32,448 nt of DNA, taken from contig CAISWQ010000117.1 of the NCBI GenBank assembly GCA_903889245.1, positions 1 through 32,448 on the forward strand, written 5' to 3'. Of the stretch, positions 2,644 through 30,283 are shown in pieces. The position numbers were made by a program, and so were the translations under genes. The notes below the pieces were generated by a model. It searched no databases. It was not told the DNA's origin and saw nothing but the letters and a program-made list of their open reading frames with translations. Source of the DNA: an uncultured Lentisphaerota bacterium (GTDB lineage: Bacteria > Verrucomicrobiota > Kiritimatiellia > CAIQIC01). Numbering within the stretch: position 1 is the stretch's first letter; each line of letters starts with the position of its first letter.

Positions 2644-5130
2644 TTACTTCAGCGCGAGGACGAGCGAGAACTGCGTGCCGTGCCAGCCGTTCTCGACGCG
2701 ATAGAGGATACGGTTCAGCCCCTGCTTGAAGTGGACCTTGCGGAACCCCTCGTCAGCGCGCCAGCTCTTGAGCTGCTTGCCGCTGGACCAGATGAGTTGG
2801 TCCTCGACCCAGATCTTGGAATAGTCGTCGCTGCCCACGGCGACCCAGAGGTCGCACGCCTGCTCGAAGTGGAGTTCGGTGTAGGCGTAGTAGATGATGT
2901 ATTCGAGGCCGCGGGTTTCGCAATCGGTCTCGCGGTTGGGCCGCTTGAGGTGCGGTTTAAAATGGTCGAAGGGCGGCACGATCATGGCCTCCGGCGACTG
3001 GAAGAATTCCCAGCGGATCGGGTTGTTTTCCTTGCCCAGGTAGGTGGCGTTGAGGTCCACGACGGTCTCCGGCGGGAACTTCTTCTCGATGTTCTCGCGG
3101 CGCGCGTTGTCGAAGGGGCCGATGATGTACCAGCTATCCACGAACAACCAGCCGGTGGAGGAGGCGGTGGTGTTGACCTTGCGGCCGGGCAGGGCCTTCA
3201 TGTGCTTGGGCATCGTGGGCGGGCCGCCGCCGTAACCGGGCAGGCCCGTCCGGCCCGGCTGTCCGCCGGGCAGAACGCCGCCACCCGCGACCTGGCCCTT
3301 GCCGAAGACCGCCGCGCCCGCCTGCATCGCGGCGGAGAGGTCCTTCGCGCGCTGGTTATCGTCCTCGGCGGCGAGGCCATCCATCTTCGCGACCTGCGCG
3401 CTCATCGCCTTGATGTCGGCGAGCGTGATCGTCGCACCCTCCGCGCCGCGCGAGGTGCCGCGGTTCAGCCCCTTGGCCTGCATGAGCAGCGAGGCGCCGA
3501 GGTTGACCATCGCGTTGATCTCGGCGCCGGCGGTCTGGACGGCCTCGCGTAACGCGGGGACATCCTCGCCGGACTGCGCCTTCGCCTGTAGCGCTTTCTT
3601 CAAATCGGGACGCACGGCCTTGGCGACATCGGTCAGCTCCATCGCACGCTGGAGCGGAATCTCGCGGAGCATCGCCAGCTCGGTGGCGCGGATCTTTTTG
3701 TAGATTTCCGTCAGCTCCTGCTCGGTGCCGACGGCGGACTGATAGAGCTCGGCGAGGTTCATGCCGGCAACGTCCGGCATGGCACGCGGCGGCGGCCTGA
3801 CGGCGACCGGCGGCAGGTTCGTCATGGCAATGAGCGTGTTGCTCGCCGCATTCAGGCGCGCGGTGGCGAGCGCGATGCGCGCCTTGTTCTGCGCCTGCAA
3901 CGCCTCGGCCTGCAACTTTCGCGCGGCTTCCTGCGTCTCGACCATCTTCGTTTCCTGCGCGTCGGCCTTGGTCGCGGCCTGGGCGACCTCGCTCTGCAAC
4001 TGTTCCGCTTTGGTCTTGGTGGTGGCCAGACGGTTCTCCGCGGATTTAATCGAGTCGGTGGCGCGGTCGGCCTTACGCTGCAACTCGTCGGCCTTCCGCT
4101 TGGTCGTGGCGAGTTTGCTCTCGGTCGTGGTCACCGTCGCGGCAGCTTTCTTCGCGCGGTCCGAGGCTTGCGTGGCCAGTTCCTTCGCCGCCTTCTTGTC
4201 GGTGCCCTTGCCGGGGATGCGGTCAGCGTTGGCCTTCGCCTGCGCGGCCTCGGTCTTCATCTTCTCCGACTCGGTGCGCGCCGTGGCGGCGGTCGCCTGT
4301 AGCTCCTGCATCTCCTTCTGGGTGGCGGCCAGGTCGTCGCGATACTTGCCGGCGTTCTCCTTGGCCGTGGCCAGGTCGGTCGTCGCCTTCTTGATGCTCT
4401 CCTGTGCGCGCTCGGTCTCGCGTTGCTTGGATTCGGAGTGGTGGCGCGCGGAGGGCGTTTCCTCGCGGACCGCACTGGCTTCGAGCTGCGCCTGCTCGGC
4501 CTTCCGCTGGATTTCGTTCGCGTCGGCCTGTGCCTTGCGGGCGGGCTCGAACGTGGCGTCGCTCATCGCCAGTTCTTGCAACGCCCGGTCCATCGGCTGG
4601 CTGGCGCGGGTCTGTGCGCTGCTCGCGGTCTGCTGCGGTACGTTGGCGGCCTGCGTATCTTCCTTCGCCTTGCTCTGCCGCGCCTTGGTGACGGCCGTCA
4701 TGGCCTCCTGCTGCGCGGCGAGCGCATCGGCCTGCGCCTGCATGGCGGCGGCCTGGTTTTGCTCCGCCATGCTCGGCGCGTTGGTCGCGAACTCGGCGGC
4801 GAAGTTGGTGAACTCCATCTGCTTGGCCGCCTCCAGCTCCTGCAGCTCGCGCTGGATTTCTTGCAACGTGCGCACATCCTCGGAGAGCTTTTCGGCCTGG
4901 ACCACGCGGACCTGGTCCATCACTTCCTGGATTTTTTCCGTGCCCGCGGTGAACTCGGCCTTGGCGCGTTCGAGGTTGATGATGCGGATCGGCGAGAAGA
5001 AGACCAACCAGCCGAGGACGAGCGTGTGGAAGGCGGCCGACATGAGCCACCAGACGGGGATCACCTTCCGCCGTGCGCGCTGCGCTTCGTCAGCGGTCGC
5101 CCGGGTTTTTTCTGGTATGGAGTCCGACAT
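2644..5130 (-). CDS. Inner-membrane-anchored coiled-coil protein with C-terminal beta domain, ExbBD partner
   Basis: An 828-residue protein. Residues 1-22 are polar and basic, and residues about 23-48 form a single membrane helix, so the bulk should be periplasmic. Residues about 55-420 are Ala/Lys/Glu/Gln-rich coiled coil. A second helical part covers about 455-600. A Gly/Pro linker lies at 612-640, and a tryptophan-rich beta domain at about 658-828 (WYIIGPFDN, DLNATYLGK, VGSDDYSKIWVEDQLIW, LNRILYRVENG) resembles PA14-like or glycosidase-associated jelly-roll modules. There is no TonB C-terminal domain. The start at 5130 overlaps the ExbD gene end by 41 bp and has GAAGGGC upstream. Position and topology suggest the third, force-transmitting subunit of an ExbBD motor, replacing TonB/TolA. 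The target is unknown and no named family was recognised. Confidence 0.85.
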   Translation of the reverse strand: MSDSIPEKTRATADEAQRARRKVIPVWWLMSAAFHTLVLGWLVFFSPIRIINLERAKAEFTAGTEKIQEVMDQVRVVQAEKLSEDVRTLQEIQRELQELEAAKQMEFTNFAAEFATNAPSMAEQNQAAAMQAQADALAAQQEAMTAVTKARQSKAKEDTQAANVPQQTASSAQTRASQPMDRALQELAMSDATFEPARKAQADANEIQRKAEQAQLEASAVREETPSARHHSESKQRETERAQESIKKATTDLATAKENAGKYRDDLAATQKEMQELQATAATARTESEKMKTEAAQAKANADRIPGKGTDKKAAKELATQASDRAKKAAATVTTTESKLATTKRKADELQRKADRATDSIKSAENRLATTKTKAEQLQSEVAQAATKADAQETKMVETQEAARKLQAEALQAQNKARIALATARLNAASNTLIAMTNLPPVAVRPPPRAMPDVAGMNLAELYQSAVGTEQELTEIYKKIRATELAMLREIPLQRAMELTDVAKAVRPDLKKALQAKAQSGEDVPALREAVQTAGAEINAMVNLGASLLMQAKGLNRGTSRGAEGATITLADIKAMSAQVAKMDGLAAEDDNQRAKDLSAAMQAGAAVFGKGQVAGGGVLPGGQPGRTGLPGYGGGPPTMPKHMKALPGRKVNTTASSTGWLFVDSWYIIGPFDNARRENIEKKFPPETVVDLNATYLGKENNPIRWEFFQSPEAMIVPPFDHFKPHLKRPNRETDCETRGLEYIIYYAYTELHFEQACDLWVAVGSDDYSKIWVEDQLIWSSGKQLKSWRADEGFRKVHFKQGLNRILYRVENGWHGTQFSLVLALK

Positions 5131-5521
5131 TCTTCAGCCCTTCAAACTGGCAGAGGTCCACGATATGGACGATGTCCTCGAAGCGGGCGTTGCGGTCGCC
5201 ATCAATCCGCACGCGCTGGTTCGGGTTGAGCTTGGCGGCGGCGCGCAGGCGCTGGTGGAGCCGCTCGGTATCCACCGGCTCGATCAGGTCGCCGGAGCCG
5301 AGGAAGGTGCGGCCGTCCTTGCCGATGCCGATGATCAGCAGGTCCGGCGGCTGCTCGATGTTCAGCGCGGCGGCGGATTCCGGCAGGTCCAGCGGCAGCT
5401 CCTTGGCGCGGTTCTTCAGCGTCGTGGCGACGAGGAAGAAAATGATGATGACCAGCATGCAGTCAATCATCGGGATGAGCATGATCTCGAACGGCTCTTC
5501 TTCGGGTTTCTTGGTGCGCAT
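5090..5521 (-). CDS. exbD: ExbD/TolR-family biopolymer transport protein
   Basis: A 143-residue protein of normal ExbD/TolR size. It has a short cytoplasmic N-terminus and one membrane helix (IPMIDCMLVIIIFFLVATT, about residues 17-35) carrying the conserved aspartate used for proton passage. A periplasmic domain follows (LPLDLPESAAAL, LLIIGIGKDGRTFL, VRIDGDRNARFEDIVHIVDLC) that matches the ExbD/TolR fold. It begins 9 bp after the ExbB stop and overlaps the start of the coiled-coil gene, so the three are translated from one transcript. Whether it works in nutrient uptake (Exb) or envelope integrity (Tol) cannot be told from sequence, because no TonB, TolA, TolB or Pal gene is nearby. Confidence 0.9.
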   Translation of the reverse strand: MRTKKPEEEPFEIMLIPMIDCMLVIIIFFLVATTLKNRAKELPLDLPESAAALNIEQPPDLLIIGIGKDGRTFLGSGDLIEPVDTERLHQRLRAAAKLNPNQRVRIDGDRNARFEDIVHIVDLCQFEGLKNVGLHTRKNPGDR

Positions 5522-12076: not shown

Positions 12077-12140
12077 AACGCGCTCCTCTCTGCGGTCGCC
12101 GCCGCAACGCGGCGCACGATAGAACAAGCCGCGCGAAGAA

Positions 12141-12430
12141 GAAACCTGAAACTGAAGAAGAAACCTGAAACGTGAGACCTGAAACCTGAAACCGGAAACC
12201 TGAGACCTGAAACCTGAAACCGGAAACCTGAAACCTGAAGCCGGAAAGCAGAAAGCAGAGACCGGAAAGCTGAAAGCAGAAACCGGAAACCTGAAACCGG
12301 AAACCTGAAACCTGAAACCGGAAAGCTGAAAGCGGAGACCGGAAAGCTGAAACTTGAAACCTGAAACCTGAAACGTGAGACCTGAAACCGGAAAGCTGAA
12401 AGCAGAAACCGGAAACCGGAAACCTGAAAT
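12141..12430. repeat. Heptanucleotide tandem repeat array (GARASCN)
   Basis: After two units and a 5-base break, 38 uninterrupted 7-bp units run from 12160 to 12425, ending in a partial unit. The consensus is GAAACCT/GAAACCG with frequent GAAAGCT/GAAAGCA variants and some GAGACC. One strand is purine-rich throughout. All frames are open across it because 7 is not a multiple of 3, giving repetitive FRFLLSAF- or ETGKLKAE-like translations that are not genes. It separates the permease promoter region from the duplicated gene tail at 12443. Confidence 0.95.
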
Positions 12431-12442
12431 AAAGGGGTGGTC

Positions 12443-12509
12443 ACTCGGTAAACGCCTGCAACTCGGCGCAGGAGGAGAAGGCTTGAGTCGGGTTATCGCC
12501 GCCGATGGA
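12443..12509 (-). pseudogene. Duplicated C-terminal tail of the ADP-ribosylglycohydrolase-like gene
   Basis: On the minus strand this encodes GGDNPTQAFSSCAELQAFTE and a TGA stop. The intact gene at 13934 ends CGDNPQQAFSSCAELQAFGE. From GDNP to the final Glu, 17 of 19 residues match, and 20 consecutive bases are identical. Upstream the frame stays open for about 40 codons but becomes Gly/Ala/Val-rich without resemblance to the intact protein. It has no convincing start, so it is read as a decayed paralogue end or a mobilised tail. It lies just downstream of attC site A, where a third cassette would begin. Confidence 0.6.
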
Positions 12510-12630
12510 ACCCACGGCGACTGGCAAGCCGCCGACTATAGCGCCTGGAGCGACCCCACCAGCCACCGCTGCGCCTGACCTTCCTCCGCCAACCACCCCA
12601 GGCCGGAACCAACCCCGGCCTGCTTTTCAT

Positions 12631-12701
12631 GGAGAACGTCACGCCTCACCGGATTCCGAACCCGCTGCGGGTGAGGAATACGGTGCAGGCGATGGTTGGG
12701 C
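12631..12701 (-). other. attC recombination site A of an integron-type cassette array
   Basis: Read on the minus strand, this 71-bp site begins with R'' GCCCAAC (12701-12695) and ends with an R' core G^TTCTCC (12637-12631). Between them are imperfect inverted arms and a central hairpin ACCCGC-T-GCGGGT (12660-12672). It shares a 19-bp identical core with site B. R'' is complementary to the TTGGGC that opens the same cassette at 13205-13200. The R' tail TTCTCC does not match GTTRRRY well, as expected when it belongs to a different or decayed next cassette. Confidence 0.75.
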
Positions 12702-12703
12702 TT

Positions 12704-13189
12704 TCATTTTCTTATGAAGAAACACACCAAATCATCCTGACGCGGGAGTGCATTCAGTTGAACCTTGAACTTTCTCACGTCGTCCCACTTTATGATGTGA
12801 CTCTTTCCGCTCTGCTTGACAGCATTCTGAGCGTCCTGAATGGGTATTTTGTAGAATTCCTCCAAGAACAAATCGCTGGTGAAGGCGATGATTATCAGCT
12901 CATCGAAATTCTGAAGTGTCGCTTTGACGTTTGTCCATCTTGCGTTGTTACCTTCGCCCTTGGCATGAGCTTTCACCTGTAGCTTTGCAGTCGTGGTCTT
13001 AACATCCCAGTCAGGCTGCGTTGTTGTTGCTGCTCGTGTGCCGCCATACAACTCGGCAACAAACCACTCGCCGATTTCACCTGTAGTCCTTTCAGACCGC
13101 AGCACGTCCAGTTGCCGCAGAAACTGCTTCGCACCGATCATCTGGTTGAGGCTATTGCGCACAACCGCGTTGTCTGATTTCGTATTCAT
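12704..13189 (-). CDS. Cassette gene: PD-(D/E)XK nuclease-like hypothetical protein
   Basis: A 161-residue protein encoded in an integron-type cassette (12637-13205). It contains TGEIGEWFVAELYGG followed by PDWDV...LQVKAHAKG. That pattern is typical of the PD-(D/E)XK fold: a Glu in the first helix, an acidic residue on the second strand, and Q-x-K in place of E-x-K. Such folds occur in restriction enzymes and other nucleases; activity here is unproven. The ATG lies 16 bases inside the cassette boundary and the stop 3 bases before R'' of attC A, the usual compact packing of a cassette. The region is clearly AT-richer than its neighbours, which supports horizontal origin. Confidence 0.8.
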   Translation of the reverse strand: MNTKSDNAVVRNSLNQMIGAKQFLRQLDVLRSERTTGEIGEWFVAELYGGTRAATTTQPDWDVKTTTAKLQVKAHAKGEGNNARWTNVKATLQNFDELIIIAFTSDLFLEEFYKIPIQDAQNAVKQSGKSHIIKWDDVRKFKVQLNALPRQDDLVCFFIRK

Positions 13190-13199
13190 TGTCTTTGAA

Positions 13200-13271
13200 G
13201 CCCAACGTTACGGCTGACCGGACGGCGAACCCGCTGCGGGTGAGCCGTACGGTCCGGCCGATGGTTCGGGC
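13200..13271 (-). other. attC recombination site B of an integron-type cassette array
   Basis: A 72-bp site on the minus strand with R'' GCCCGAAC (13271-13264), inverted arms GGCCGGACCGTACGGC and GCCGTCCGGTCAGCC with unpaired bases, the central hairpin ACCCGC-T-GCGGGT (13229-13241), and R' G^TTGGGC (13206-13200) matching GTTRRRY. R'' is exactly complementary to the TTCGGGC that opens cassette 1 at 13725-13719, as required if the cassette once closed into a circle. Confidence 0.8.
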
Positions 13272-13711
13272 TTCCTTTTCTTCGCCGGTCCATCGAAGTG
13301 GCCGACTTCCACTTTTGCCAATCGCCCATTGCGATAGTAGAGCATCAGACATCCCCTGGCTCCGGGCTCCTCCCCAATCCAGTATCCCATTTGGTGTTCC
13401 ATCTCGAAACCCGGCGTGCCGAGAAGGGCCATCGTCTGACTCCGAGTGAGGTGGATTGCATTGGTAGGAACAGCCCGCCCCGATCGGAAACGATTAAGGA
13501 AATCGGAGATCACCCGCGCTTCGGCCAGTCGATTCGTCTGCGGGAGCTCCGAGAAACGCGAAGCGGCGGCTCGTATATCGGCTGGCCACTGCGCGCACGG
13601 CGGAACGCGAAGTAATTCCTTCGGTATGTTCTCGGGCACTCGCGAGCAGGCGACAAAGAGCGCTGACATCGCAACTGTGGATACCACGATTCCGATAATC
13701 TTCTTCATCAT
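13208..13711 (-). CDS. Cassette gene: small lipoprotein, BamE/SmpA-like
   Basis: A 167-residue protein. Residues 1-22 are a lipoprotein signal peptide ending ALFVAC with Cys22. The mature part contains HLTRSQTMALLGTPGFE and, after a variable stretch, LMLYYRNGRLAKVEVG, the pattern of BamE/SmpA-like lipoproteins (a helix followed by a beta hairpin). The Ser/Gly/Pro-rich C-terminus (from about PEPSAGPYG) is encoded by attC site B itself, so the cassette gene reads into its recombination site. The start is 14 bases inside the cassette boundary. The tandem ATGs at 13711 and 13708 are equivalent, and AGGCAG is a weak ribosome binding site. An envelope role is inferred. Confidence 0.8.
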   Translation of the reverse strand: MMKKIIGIVVSTVAMSALFVACSRVPENIPKELLRVPPCAQWPADIRAAASRFSELPQTNRLAEARVISDFLNRFRSGRAVPTNAIHLTRSQTMALLGTPGFEMEHQMGYWIGEEPGARGCLMLYYRNGRLAKVEVGHFDGPAKKRKPEPSAGPYGSPAAGSPSGQP

Positions 13712-13730
13712 TCTGCCTGCCCGAACATAG

Positions 13731-13778
13731 TGCTATACGGCTGTCCGCCTATTATAATAGGCGGACAGCCGTATAGCA
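13731..13778. repeat. Perfect 48-bp palindrome
   Basis: Two 24-bp arms (left arm TGCTATACGG...GCCTATTA) are exact reverse complements with no loop. It lies 5 bp outside the upstream boundary of cassette 1 (G^TT at 13726/13725). The centre reads TATTATAATA. A second 12-bp perfect palindrome, ATCTGTACAGAT, follows at 13786-13797. It could be an attachment-type site, a palindromic miniature element, or a bidirectional hairpin. Bases 13798-13933, up to the next stop codon, hold nothing I recognise. Confidence 0.9.
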
Positions 13779-13933
13779 TCTTTATATCTGTACAGATTCA
13801 CCTGCGGCCATGCTAGGACGCGGCTGTGGCGGTGTCAAGTGTGGTGGTGGATTGTGCCACCTGTGCTGCGCACCTATCTACTCGGCGAACCTCTCCGAAA
13901 CTCGGTGGTTCAATCTGCTTCTGCTGGCGCGGC

Positions 13934-15616
13934 TCATTCGCCGAACGCTTGCAGTTCGGCGCAGGAGGAGAAGGCCTGCTGCGGGTTGTCGCCACAGGCG
14001 GGGACGCCGAGGACGCGGACGGCGACGGCCTTGACCGGCGCCGGCAATTTCAGCGTGAAGGTCTGGCCGGGTTGGAGGCCCTGGTGGTCGGTGGCGGTGG
14101 TGGCGGGATAGTCGGTGAGTTCACCGATCGTCTCCCACGCCCCGCCAAGTTCGCGCTGGATTTGCACCTGGGGCTTACCGACGAACCAGCCGCCGTCGTG
14201 GAAGCTGTTGCCGTGGGCGAAGACGATGCGGCGCACATGCATCGGCTTGGCGAGCGGGATGGCGAACCAGTCCGCCTTGGCGTTCTTACCGTTGAACGTG
14301 ACGACGTAGGTGTCGCGGCGGCCGTCGCAGATCGAGCCTTCGCGATTGCCCTGGCGGGAGCGGCTCTCCTCGCGCTTGAGGGTGGCCAACTCTTCCGCTG
14401 TGAACCTGGAGTTGGCGATGGGGCCGGGCGCCCAACTGCGTTCGAGCGCGCTGGGCCGCGGCGTCTGCACCGGGATGACGAGCACCTCCACGCCCGCGGC
14501 ATCCTTCTCGATGCGACCGCCGGCGCGCAGCACCGCCTGCCGCGCGAGCTGCTCGCTGACGGCATAGACCTGCGGCACCGTGTAGTCGGTGAAGCTGAAC
14601 TTGCGCTGCGGGTCGAGTTTTTCGGTGTAGTGCTTCTCGATCTTGGCGGCGCCCAGCGCCGCGAACAGCACGCCGGCGGCGTTGGCGGGATTGCAGTCGC
14701 TGTCCTGCCCGCAGCGGCAGGCGATGGCGATGGTCCGGGCGGGGTCGCCCGCGCCGTAGAGCAGGCCCATGATGATGTAGGCGCCGTTGAGTTTGGCATC
14801 AATGCTGAACGCGTCCTTACCGCCGGGCTTCGAGCAGAAGGGGTGCGTGTAGTGCGGGTCCCGGTGATACTTCGCCTCGACGAGTTCCCACGTCTTGGTC
14901 CAGTCGGAATTTTCGCGGCACCACGTGAGCAGGTCGCGGATCATCTCCGCATACTGGCTCTCCGGCGGCACGCAGGCGAGGCCGGCGGCGACGAGCTTCC
15001 ACGGATCGGATTCAAAGTAAGCCTCGGCGTACATGCCGCCGACGAACTGGCCGGCGTAGAGGCCGTCGCCATAGTTCATGAGCCGGCCGAATTTTTCGCC
15101 GAGCGCGATCACCTGATTCGGCAGACCCGGCGCGATGATGCCGGAGAAGTCGGCCTCGATCTGGTAGTCAATGTCGTCGGCGTGCTCGTTGAACTGGGGA
15201 TGGCCGCTATCCGGCGGCGCGATACCGCGGCGGAGATTGTCACGCCCGGCCTTGTTCGCGTGCCAAAGCGGGTAGCCGCTGTTGGCGAAGTCGAGGCCCG
15301 CCTGCTTGAGCGCGGCGTCGAAGCCGTACAACTCCAGCGTGCGCAGGAAGGTCATCTCGACGTAGCAATCGTCGTTGCCGTGTTGGTTGATCATCTCCGG
15401 CTTCCACGCCGGCATCTGGCTTTCCGGGATGATCGCGCCCTTGACCTTGAATTCGGTCGGCGCGCCCCAGCCGACGCCGATCATCTGACCGAGCCACGCG
15501 CCCTGCATCTTGTCCACAAACACCGGCAGCGGCAGCCGCCGGACCGGCGCCTCGGCGGCGCGCAAGCCGAGGCAGCAGCCCAGACACAAAACCAGGAGGC
15601 AGCGGAGTGTTTTCAT
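13934..15616 (-). CDS. Secreted ADP-ribosylglycohydrolase-family protein with discoidin-like C-terminus
   Basis: A 560-residue protein. A signal peptide covers about residues 1-21 (MKTLRCLLVLCLGCCLGLRA). The ADP-ribosylglycohydrolase (PF03747) fold covers about 35-345, with DKMQGAWLGQMIGVGWGAPTEF near the start, HGNDDCYVEM at 79-88 and RCGQDSDCNPANAAGVLFAALGA at 301-323, which supplies the metal-binding aspartates. Residues about 400-555 look like a discoidin-type module. Secreted members of this family are common in PVC bacteria next to sugar enzymes, and their substrate is uncertain. The start at 15616 is chosen for its signal peptide and AAAGGAA upstream. A longer frame to 15847 only translates the palindrome array. 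Its last 19 codons recur at 12443. Confidence 0.88.
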   Translation of the reverse strand: MKTLRCLLVLCLGCCLGLRAAEAPVRRLPLPVFVDKMQGAWLGQMIGVGWGAPTEFKVKGAIIPESQMPAWKPEMINQHGNDDCYVEMTFLRTLELYGFDAALKQAGLDFANSGYPLWHANKAGRDNLRRGIAPPDSGHPQFNEHADDIDYQIEADFSGIIAPGLPNQVIALGEKFGRLMNYGDGLYAGQFVGGMYAEAYFESDPWKLVAAGLACVPPESQYAEMIRDLLTWCRENSDWTKTWELVEAKYHRDPHYTHPFCSKPGGKDAFSIDAKLNGAYIIMGLLYGAGDPARTIAIACRCGQDSDCNPANAAGVLFAALGAAKIEKHYTEKLDPQRKFSFTDYTVPQVYAVSEQLARQAVLRAGGRIEKDAAGVEVLVIPVQTPRPSALERSWAPGPIANSRFTAEELATLKREESRSRQGNREGSICDGRRDTYVVTFNGKNAKADWFAIPLAKPMHVRRIVFAHGNSFHDGGWFVGKPQVQIQRELGGAWETIGELTDYPATTATDHQGLQPGQTFTLKLPAPVKAVAVRVLGVPACGDNPQQAFSSCAELQAFGE

Positions 15617-15677
15617 CGGAGGCGTTCCTTTAGGCGGAGTGAGGGTGTGGCGCTGGTGCGCGGGGTGGGCTGGGGGC

Positions 15678-15697
15678 GCGGGAGCTGTAGCTCCCGC
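15678..15697. repeat. Hairpin GCGGGAGCT-GT-AGCTCCCGC
   Basis: A 20-bp palindrome with 9-bp arms and a two-base centre lies upstream of the ADP-ribosylglycohydrolase-like gene, between its leader and palindrome cluster 4. It has no U tract and no clear promoter relation. Confidence 0.5.
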
Positions 15698-15714
15698 CCA
15701 CAAGTTGGGAGAGC

Positions 15715-15858
15715 TTTCCAAGGCTTGGAAATTTTTGGACGGATTTTTCCGGGGCTTGGAAAAATTCCGGCGAGATTTTCCAAGGCTTGGAAAAGTTAGC
15801 GGTAAGTTTTTCCAATCCTTGGAAAAACAGGGTGTCGCGGTTTCCAAGCATTGGAAAA
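15715..15858. repeat. Phased palindrome array, cluster 4 (5 copies)
   Basis: This is the longest array. Five TTCCAAG-N-CTTGGAA-type palindromes are centred at about 15723, 15754, 15785, 15817 and 15849 (spacings 31, 31, 32, 32 bp). Copies 1 and 3 are near-perfect; copies 2, 4 and 5 carry one to three arm changes. It lies between the LptE stop (15872) and the ADP-ribosylglycohydrolase-like start (15616). Confidence 0.9.
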
Positions 15859-19130: not shown

Positions 19131-19466
19131 ATGAAAATGAAGAAGCAGAAAAAGGGGTTCACCCTGGTTGAAATCATGATCGTGGTGGCGATCATCGCGT
19201 TGCTCGCGGCGATTGCGGTCCCGTCGTTCATGAACGCGCGCACCAAGTCCATGACCAGCTCCTGCCAGAACAACCTGCGCCTGATTGATGGCGCGGTGCA
19301 GCAGTACGCGCTGGACAACTCCAACGCGTTGGCGGGTTCGATGGCCGTGCTCGTCGGCACGAACTCCTACATCAAGGACACGCCGGTCTGCAAGGGTGGT
19401 GGCTCCTACACGTTGCCGGCCAGCCTCGGCGGCAAGACCTCCTGCAGTTCCCACGGCACGCTCTAA
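19131..19466 (+). CDS. Type IV pilin-like / pseudopilin protein
   Basis: A 111-residue protein. It has a short basic leader (MKMKKQKKG), then prepilin peptidase cleavage before FTLVEIMIVVAIIALLAAIAVPSF, with the conserved Glu at +5. It is methylated and assembled by a type IV pilus or type II secretion system in related proteins. The small globular part (CQNNLRLIDGAVQQYALDNSNA, VCKGGGSYTLP, HGTL) contains cysteines able to form a disulfide. A paralogue of identical length lies at 29948-30283. AAAGAGAG lies directly before the first ATG. The second ATG at 19137 has better spacing and is an equally plausible start. It is followed by a strong intrinsic terminator, so it is a single-gene transcript. 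Confidence 0.9.
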   Translation: MKMKKQKKGFTLVEIMIVVAIIALLAAIAVPSFMNARTKSMTSSCQNNLRLIDGAVQQYALDNSNALAGSMAVLVGTNSYIKDTPVCKGGGSYTLPASLGGKTSCSSHGTL

Positions 19467-23357: not shown

Positions 23358-23803
23358 GGGGACCTTCTCCACGCCCAGTTGCGGGCGGTTTTTGCGGTTT
23401 TCGGCCTGTTTTCGAGGTTTTCGGCCTTGTCCCCAACGGTTGGAGACAAGCGCAGACTCCCGCGGGATAGGTCCCCCGCGGCGCGGTACAGGGCCCAACT
23501 CCGCTGGGACATGGGGCCGGCCGTTACGGTACAGGTGTTGAAACCTTTGGGACGCCGTGCAAAACCTTTGGGGACACGGCTCGCGACGTGCGGGACCGGT
23601 CGCGCGGCAAAGGGGACACCGTACAAAACCGTGCGGGGCCTGTACCGAAGGCCACGAGACATGTACCCAGAGCGGGAAACGAGCGAGGTTGGGCTACGGC
23701 TTGGGGCGCTGGGGCGCTGGGTGAAGGTGCTTCATAACCTACGCATACTTTTGAAGCGCCGCCGCAAGCGCGTCAAGACATTAAACTATCAAAATTCCGA
23801 TAG
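23358..23803. other. Non-coding stretch with short modular repeats
   Basis: There is no convincing gene here. Short words recur: AAACCTTTGGGAC and AAACCTTTGGGGAC about 25 bp apart (23541-23575), CGTGCAAAACC and CGTACAAAACC, several GTAC-containing words (GTACAGG, TGTACCG, TGTACCC), and TTTTCGGCCTG / TTTTCGGCCTTG near 23398-23430. Open frames here on both strands are low-complexity Arg/Gly/Pro and unsupported. Confidence 0.5.
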
Positions 23804-23936
23804 TTCCAAGGCTCGGAAAAAAGGCGCAAAAAAGTTCCGAGGCCCGGAAAGCTGATGGCTGAAAGCTGATAGCTGACCGCCATCTTTTTCCCATCCTTGG
23901 AAGATTGGGCTTGCAGCGTTTCCCATCCTTGGAAAA
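23804..23936. repeat. Phased palindrome array, cluster 6 (4 copies, interrupted)
   Basis: Palindrome centres are at about 23811, 23842, 23895 and 23927 (31, 53, 32 bp). The 53-bp interval contains an enlarged spacer carrying GCTGATG-GCTGAAA-GCTGATA-GCTGA, that is, three or so 7-bp units like those of the array at 12141. Removing 21-22 bp restores the normal 31-32 bp period. Copy 4 belongs to the 32-bp segment shared with 19600-19631. Confidence 0.85.
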
Positions 23937-29947: not shown

Positions 29948-30283
29948 TCACAGCGTGCCGTGCAGGTTGCAGGCGGGTTTGCCGCCGAGGGTGGTGGGCA
30001 GGGTGTAGACGCCGCCGCCTTTGCAGACCGGGAGGTCCCGGAAGTAGGGGTTCTCGCCCATCAGGTCGGTCATGGCCGTGGGCAGGGCGTTGCTGTGGTC
30101 CAACGCAAATTGCTGCAGCGCGCCATCTATCACCCGCAGATTGTTCTGACAAAAGCCGGCTTGCGATTTGTGGCGCGCACTGATGAAGGAGGGAATCGCC
30201 AGGCCCGCCACCAGCGAAATGATCGCCACCACGATCATGATTTCCAGCAGGGTGAAGCCCCGCGCTGTGGATGAGTTGTACAT
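29948..30283 (-). CDS. Type IV pilin-like / pseudopilin protein, second copy
   Basis: A 111-residue protein, the same length as the pilin at 19131. It has the leader MYNSSTARG and then FTLLEIMIVVAIISLVAGLAIPSF with Glu at +5. The globular part is clearly paralogous (FCQNNLRVIDGALQQFALDHSNA, LPVCKGGGVYTLPTTLGGKPACNLHGTL). Its leader is less basic than that of the first copy. The start is 18 bp after the stop of the upstream TPR/deacetylase gene, so it is cotranscribed rather than under its own sigma-54 promoter. AAAGGAAAGG lies upstream of the ATG at a slightly long distance. Confidence 0.9.
   Translation of the reverse strand: MYNSSTARGFTLLEIMIVVAIISLVAGLAIPSFISARHKSQAGFCQNNLRVIDGALQQFALDHSNALPTAMTDLMGENPYFRDLPVCKGGGVYTLPTTLGGKPACNLHGTL

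Follow-up and report, generated by a model that had tools for sequence, protein, structure and literature searches.

The 32,448-nucleotide stretch analysed here (the window) corresponds to contig C117 in a metagenome-assembled genome of 125 contigs (G000; 5.26 Mb, 96.6% complete). A reading made from the letters alone had picked out within it two integron-type gene cassettes with matched attC sites and no integrase. Are these genuine cassettes, and if so, what brought them to a place where no integrase gene is found? The region is AT-richer than its surroundings, as that reading had stated, with a GC content of 51-58% compared to 65-70% in the DNA around it. An Rfam search of the window gave no match, and none was obtained in plasmids by blastn of the cassette region or tblastn of its second open reading frame (ORF2).

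We built a covariance model (R1) from 21 attC sites lying beside intI at other loci (19 in relatives and 2 on contig C16 of the same genome), leaving both window sites out of the training set. The training sites were chosen by hairpin and core criteria, so that the model's own pair counts are not independent, whereas the window sites are. R1 recovers about 20 regularly spaced sites adjoining intI in each of two relatives, which indicates that the model works; a folding scan of our own design lacked specificity when used alone, and the covariance model took its place. The cassette ends and ORFs described earlier are where that reading put them, and so are the two sites it proposed at 13200-13271 and 12631-12701, both of which R1 finds in the window:

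13199-13271, plus strand (the bottom strand lies on plus): attC site of cassette 1; held-out model score 45.2 bits (E = 9.2e-11); forms a hairpin.
12630-12702, plus strand: attC site of cassette 2; held-out model score 34.5 bits (E = 9.1e-8); forms a hairpin.

The covariance search, on which the sequence-only reading had made its claim depend, thus recovers both sites. Searched genome-wide, they have E-values of 1.5e-8 and 1.5e-5, and the next R1 match in the window is noise (E = 0.34). As single-stranded DNA both form long hairpins (z about -4.1 to -4.6, with no shuffle equally stable), and the more stable strand at both is the window's plus strand, the recombining (bottom) strand relative to the cassettes. 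The hairpins predicted for that strand were therefore found, as was the proposed 19-bp core common to both sites, CTCACCCGCAGCGGGTTCG. Each site combines inverted RYYYAAC and GTTRRRY boxes, a two-block hairpin, unpaired bases and a covariance-model match; the outer core of the cassette 2 site, GTTCTCC, comes from the flank and departs from RRRY, as expected there.

The cassettes delimited by these sites, and the reading frames within them, are as follows:

13206-13725, minus strand: cassette 1; 520 bp long, beginning with TTCGGGC and ending with the G that precedes cassette 2; complementary ends GTTCGGGC / GCCCGAAC.
12637-13205, minus strand: cassette 2; 569 bp long, beginning with TTGGGC and ending with the last G; complementary ends GTTGGGCTT / AAGCCCAAC.
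13208-13711, minus strand: ORF1; 167 aa, belonging to no family, with a lipoprotein-like start and a 3' end that enters the attC site.
12704-13189, minus strand: ORF2; 161 aa, weakly similar to DUF6998 with a score under the gathering cut-off.

On the minus strand, cassette 1 starts at G|TTCGGGC (13726-13719) and has its R'' box, GCCCGAAC, at 13271-13264, while cassette 2 starts at G|TTGGGCTT (13206) and has the R'' box AAGCCCAAC. The 5' core is complementary to the cassette's own R'' over 8 bp in cassette 1 and 9 bp in cassette 2, so that the exact complementarity claimed for each pair of ends holds. The two ends within one attC site are not complementary (GTTGGGC versus GCCCGAAC). Complementarity between a cassette's own ends that is absent within a single attC is the trace expected of circular cassettes; as a measure of chance, only 11 of the window's 416 AAC boxes are preceded, at a distance of 200-1200 bp, by a GTT whose complementarity extends over 5 bp. 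Each cassette holds one compact ORF in cassette orientation. Neither ORF had a match in 95 relatives, and the possibility that they are fixed chromosomal genes, which the earlier reading had itself named as fatal to its case, was rejected. The held-out search and the absence of the ORFs from relatives support the core of that reading, two integron cassettes whose attC sites lack a local integrase, and both are confirmed as genuine integron gene cassettes.

The further statement that no intI gene is present holds for the window but not for the genome. None lies beside the window array, and all intI-family matches of the genome fall on other contigs; a search elsewhere, as the earlier reading had advised, turns up an intact integron integrase on contig C16 (449 aa, TIGR02249, about 357-359 bits against a cut-off of 265) with two attC-bearing cassettes directly adjoining it. 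A complete integron, in which intI adjoins attI and cassettes, is therefore found at C16 and not in the window, where two attC sites without a neighbouring intI constitute a CALIN (a cluster of attC sites lacking an integron integrase, defined in IntegronFinder by at least two attC sites; PMC9024848). Further attC sites lie on contigs C66, C70, C103 and C23. The suggestion that such a cluster is rarely reported in this type of bacterium fails, because intI scores above the cut-off in 109 of 388 genomes sampled from the phylum, the Verrucomicrobiota already figure among known carriers of integrons (PMC8618304) and CALINs occur frequently (PMC9668308, PMC9024848).

Two observations concern other integron loci of this genome. 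Between the C16 intI gene and its first cassette (L007, 13553-13763), AAGTTGTCTTTATA / TATAAAGACAACTT is repeated in both orientations, possibly as integrase-binding or repressor sites, and at the matching position the family's other intI genes have repeats of different sequence. On C23, a 5.7-kb phage-like contig with a terminase, three attC sites lie at 3059-5520 (L101); about four cassettes are marked by matching cores, and their DNA-methyltransferase genes point the opposite way to the cassettes. CALINs carrying methyltransferases have been described in phages (PMC9892861); the reversed ORFs of C23 are notable.

The most informative feature of the locus was missed by the sequence-only reading and lies outside the interval it described. 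It is an element at the head of the array, directly upstream of cassette 1:

13724-13790, minus strand: head element, attI-like; about 65 bp, recurring on C66, C70 and C102 and in sister genomes.
13786-13780 (TATAAAG), 13778-13731 (48-bp palindrome), then a spacer and the crossover G|TT with its G at 13726, minus strand: parts of the head.
13798-13817, minus strand: outer conserved stretch CCTAGCATGGCCGCAGGTGA, present in the window, on C66 and in two G002 copies.

The head consists of TATAAAG, a perfect 48-bp palindrome and ACTATG, immediately before G|TTCGGGC of cassette 1, which it joins exactly at the G|TT crossover. The copies on C70, C66 and C102 were found with the string TAGCATCTTTATAT, allowing up to two mismatches, and they align with the window up to the crossover and diverge past it. 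On C66 an array of three cassettes with matching ends starts right at the head (the third, whose degenerate attC falls below the model threshold, was read by eye), and on C70 a single such cassette does so. The head thus ends at the G|TT where the first cassette joins and is conserved between arrays, as an attI does. On C102 (L113, 1742-2153) the copy stands directly before a small PEP-CTERM-type ORF, and no attC was detected after it; this may be an empty head, one with a decayed cassette, or one with a promoter role. Two simpler identities for the palindrome were dropped: it is not a mere terminator of the preceding gene, since the same element heads other cassette arrays, nor an attC, since it has no RYYYAAC box on its 5' side.

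A second model (R2), built from the four head copies of this genome, refinds these and detects copies in G002 and G001 (same genus) and weaker ones in G005 (same family); in this genome and its sisters the head usually stands directly before cassettes. G003 and G004 have no copy above threshold. Neither at C16 nor close to the intI genes of more distant relatives does R2 match anything, so this type of head seems confined to the family. Across 84,980 species genomes, a collection from which the window's own genome may be absent, the exact head pattern was found only in the G002 copy. The stem sequence differs in the G005 copies yet is still palindromic. When pairs were counted over the aligned copies, 88% of the cells were paired and nine pairs had changed on both sides, well above the slid controls; the alignment had been fitted to the structure, and 4 of its 12 rows repeat palindromes of other rows, read on the opposite strand. 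The C70, C66 and C102 copies show only moderate folding as single strands, so that a protein-binding palindrome is as possible as a hairpin.

At three loci in two sister genomes, the head element adjoins integrase remnants. It is divergent from a decayed intI on G001 C65 (tblastn segments of 41-58% identity, best E about 1e-17), from an intact IntI N-terminus that then stops on G005 C261 (score 126, shuffled maximum 38-40) and from a frameshifted integrase N-terminal remnant on G005 C138 (score 54, same shuffled maximum). A position divergent from intI is that of attI, which is why we call the head attI-like. No integrase remnant was detected beside the window head, where the comparison stayed at control level, or beside the C66, C70 and C102 copies.

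First-cassette starts were examined systematically in five family genomes, which yielded further head families, with no start assigned for several arrays. Family I, GTTCGTTCAATAAyACTG|TT, is the attI beside intact intI at C16 and G002 C41, and it recurs without intact intI at G003 C52, G002 C8, G002 C94, G005 C451, G005 C362 and G004 C153; G002 C94 retains a deletion relic of intI (residues 1-55, then 394-434). Family III, ATATTTTTGAAGCCTAATATGATG|TT and variants, adjoins intI remnants at G003 C13 and G002 C173, and at four other loci no intI remnant was detected. Thus, two other attI-like head families behave like the window's head, and one of them, family I, is shared with intact integrons.

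The surroundings of the array were also compared. About 145 bp separate the end of the resident ADP-ribosylglycohydrolase gene from the head element. Two congeneric genomes have a related cluster of a glycohydrolase-type gene, a permease and pfkB in the same order; their permease lies directly behind the first gene, and the whole segment that holds the array is therefore lineage-specific. A second, diverged glycohydrolase 3' end (window 12447-12550 and 13934-14030; ...AFSSCAELQAF.E stop) lies past the cassettes and before the permease, and may stem from a duplication or be what is left of a paralogous gene. A low-complexity tract of GAAACCTGAAACC-like units (12121-12430) lies between the array and the permease gene, and a tract of this kind is also found upstream of the C66 array (L103, 5220-5450). 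On G002 C57 an lptE-flanked copy is arranged differently. Owing to the duplicated 3' gene end, the repeat tract and this different arrangement, no clean empty site was obtained. Elsewhere in the window, an interspersed palindromic repeat, TTTCCAAGGCTTGGAA-like, occurs at gene ends (15600-15850, 2390-2480 and 23780-23850) and is read through as FPSLGK / FSKAWK / FQGLE, with more than 15 other places in the genome matched via the glycohydrolase ORF. Two similar short type IV pilin-like genes (GFTLVEIMIVVAII...; 19131-19466 and 29948-30283) lie about 10 kb apart on opposite strands.

How, then, did the array arise? We consider it probable that the window region is a two-cassette CALIN with an attI-type head at its 5' end, whose own intI was lost and whose head and cassettes were kept. 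The dispersed arrays likewise suggest integrons minus the integrase, with the landing site retained. The cassettes would have been inserted one by one at the G|TT of the head by an integron integrase, after which the array's own integrase gene would have been lost and the head (the recombination site, probably with a promoter) and cassettes would have stayed. In the family as a whole, integrons of several attI types may have entered or arisen, their intI decaying and their attI and cassettes persisting, and the window would represent the end stage of this decay. On this reading the head would serve as an active recombination site and the locus would once have had its own intI; the C16 IntI could presumably still move the window cassettes in trans. 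In favor of integrase loss, the family I attI found beside intact intI recurs at arrays lacking intI, one of them with a deleted intI. Counting against it are the lack of remnants beside the four heads of this genome and the C16 integrase's own attI, which differs in sequence from the window head; because no integrase trace remains at the window, the loss step there is one that we infer. A further caveat is that every genome compared is a metagenome assembly.

That the C16 IntI instead put circular cassettes off target into an ordinary G|TT (attG-type), at a locus that never had its own integrase, is unlikely. An intact IntI is present in trans, the window array has no remnant near it, and in E. 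coli insertion at attG has been reported (Loot 2024, cited in PMC12444791), but the attG consensus is very short and has no conserved flank, whereas here conservation reaches some 65 bp upstream from the crossover at several loci and the head adjoins intI remnants in sister genomes. Equally doubtful is a distributed integron, in which one chromosomal integrase would act in trans on scattered orphan landing sites with small arrays and the palindrome would be a functional part of a new attI type.

A head that spread or was copied through the genome without intI, so that a single integrase would act in trans on several orphan landing sites, is quite improbable. It would fit the four copies in this genome, which stand close behind unrelated resident genes with no integrase remnant, and the recurrence of family I heads without intI in several genomes; no spreading mechanism was seen, however, and relatives show intI decaying beside heads. 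We give similarly little credence to the head being a promoter plus operator, or a 5' leader, that drives the cassettes and is not a recombination site. The TATAAAG or TATAATG motif is similar to a -10 box, the palindrome could act as an operator or form an RNA stem, and a promoter role is possible since the C102 copy precedes an ORF without attC; a promoter would not, however, require homology to stop exactly at the recombination point, as it does at many loci. The two roles are compatible and may coexist. Finally, chance hairpins or interspersed repeats in place of attC sites retain practically no probability, for all the palindromic interspersed repeats of this genome, being refuted by the covariance search (held-out E of 9e-11 and 9e-8), the exactly complementary ends, the canonical ORF placement and the recovery by R1 of long arrays beside intI.

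Integrase loss thus remains our preferred reading, and it bears on a debated question, as CALINs have been attributed to off-target insertion, integrase loss or rearrangement (summarised in PMC8618304). The family offers a series that starts with the complete integron, passes through pseudogene, deletion relic and attI with array, and ends with a short attI with array, and because this decay series is readable, the integrase-loss route becomes directly testable. It also supplies sequence models of attI-like sites outside the well-studied integrons; according to IntegronFinder, attI is poorly described beyond class 1 (PMC9024848).

Compared with known systems, the window array resembles other CALINs in its two attC sites in one orientation, its cassettes and its lack of a neighbouring intI (PMC9024848), and differs in having a conserved attI-like head and in belonging to a genome with an intact integron elsewhere. 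The Xanthomonas CALINs off the ilvD integron similarly occupy several chromosomal loci apart from intI, with no head element reported in the accessible part of the source (PMC12444791), whereas several head families occur here. Insertions at attG also place cassettes outside a standard attI, at a very short consensus only (Loot 2024, cited in PMC12444791), unlike the conserved flank at the window array. Cassettes of the deltaattI type carry attI pieces outside the platform, but these replace the cassette's attC, while the window head lies upstream of the first cassette (PMC12901181). Pseudogenes are common among intI genes, making up nearly a third and attributed to decay (PMC2426708); in the accessible part of that study, the attI and cassettes left after intI loss, which are traced here, are not followed. 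The CALIN of Shewanella prophage M16-3 likewise begins with an attI and lacks an integrase, and the genome it lies in carries a complete integron as well (PMC9892861). There the same attI heads both arrays, whereas the window head differs from the attI of the intact integron, has a long palindrome and recurs at several chromosomal loci. In the open-licence literature we found no paper on an "orphan attI" and no description of a palindrome-bearing attI type or of dispersed attI-headed CALINs in which integrase loss has reached different stages. Already known are CALINs as such, the decay of integrases (PMC2426708) and a single CALIN headed by an attI (PMC9892861), while the palindrome-bearing attI type and the decay series of attI-headed CALINs look new.
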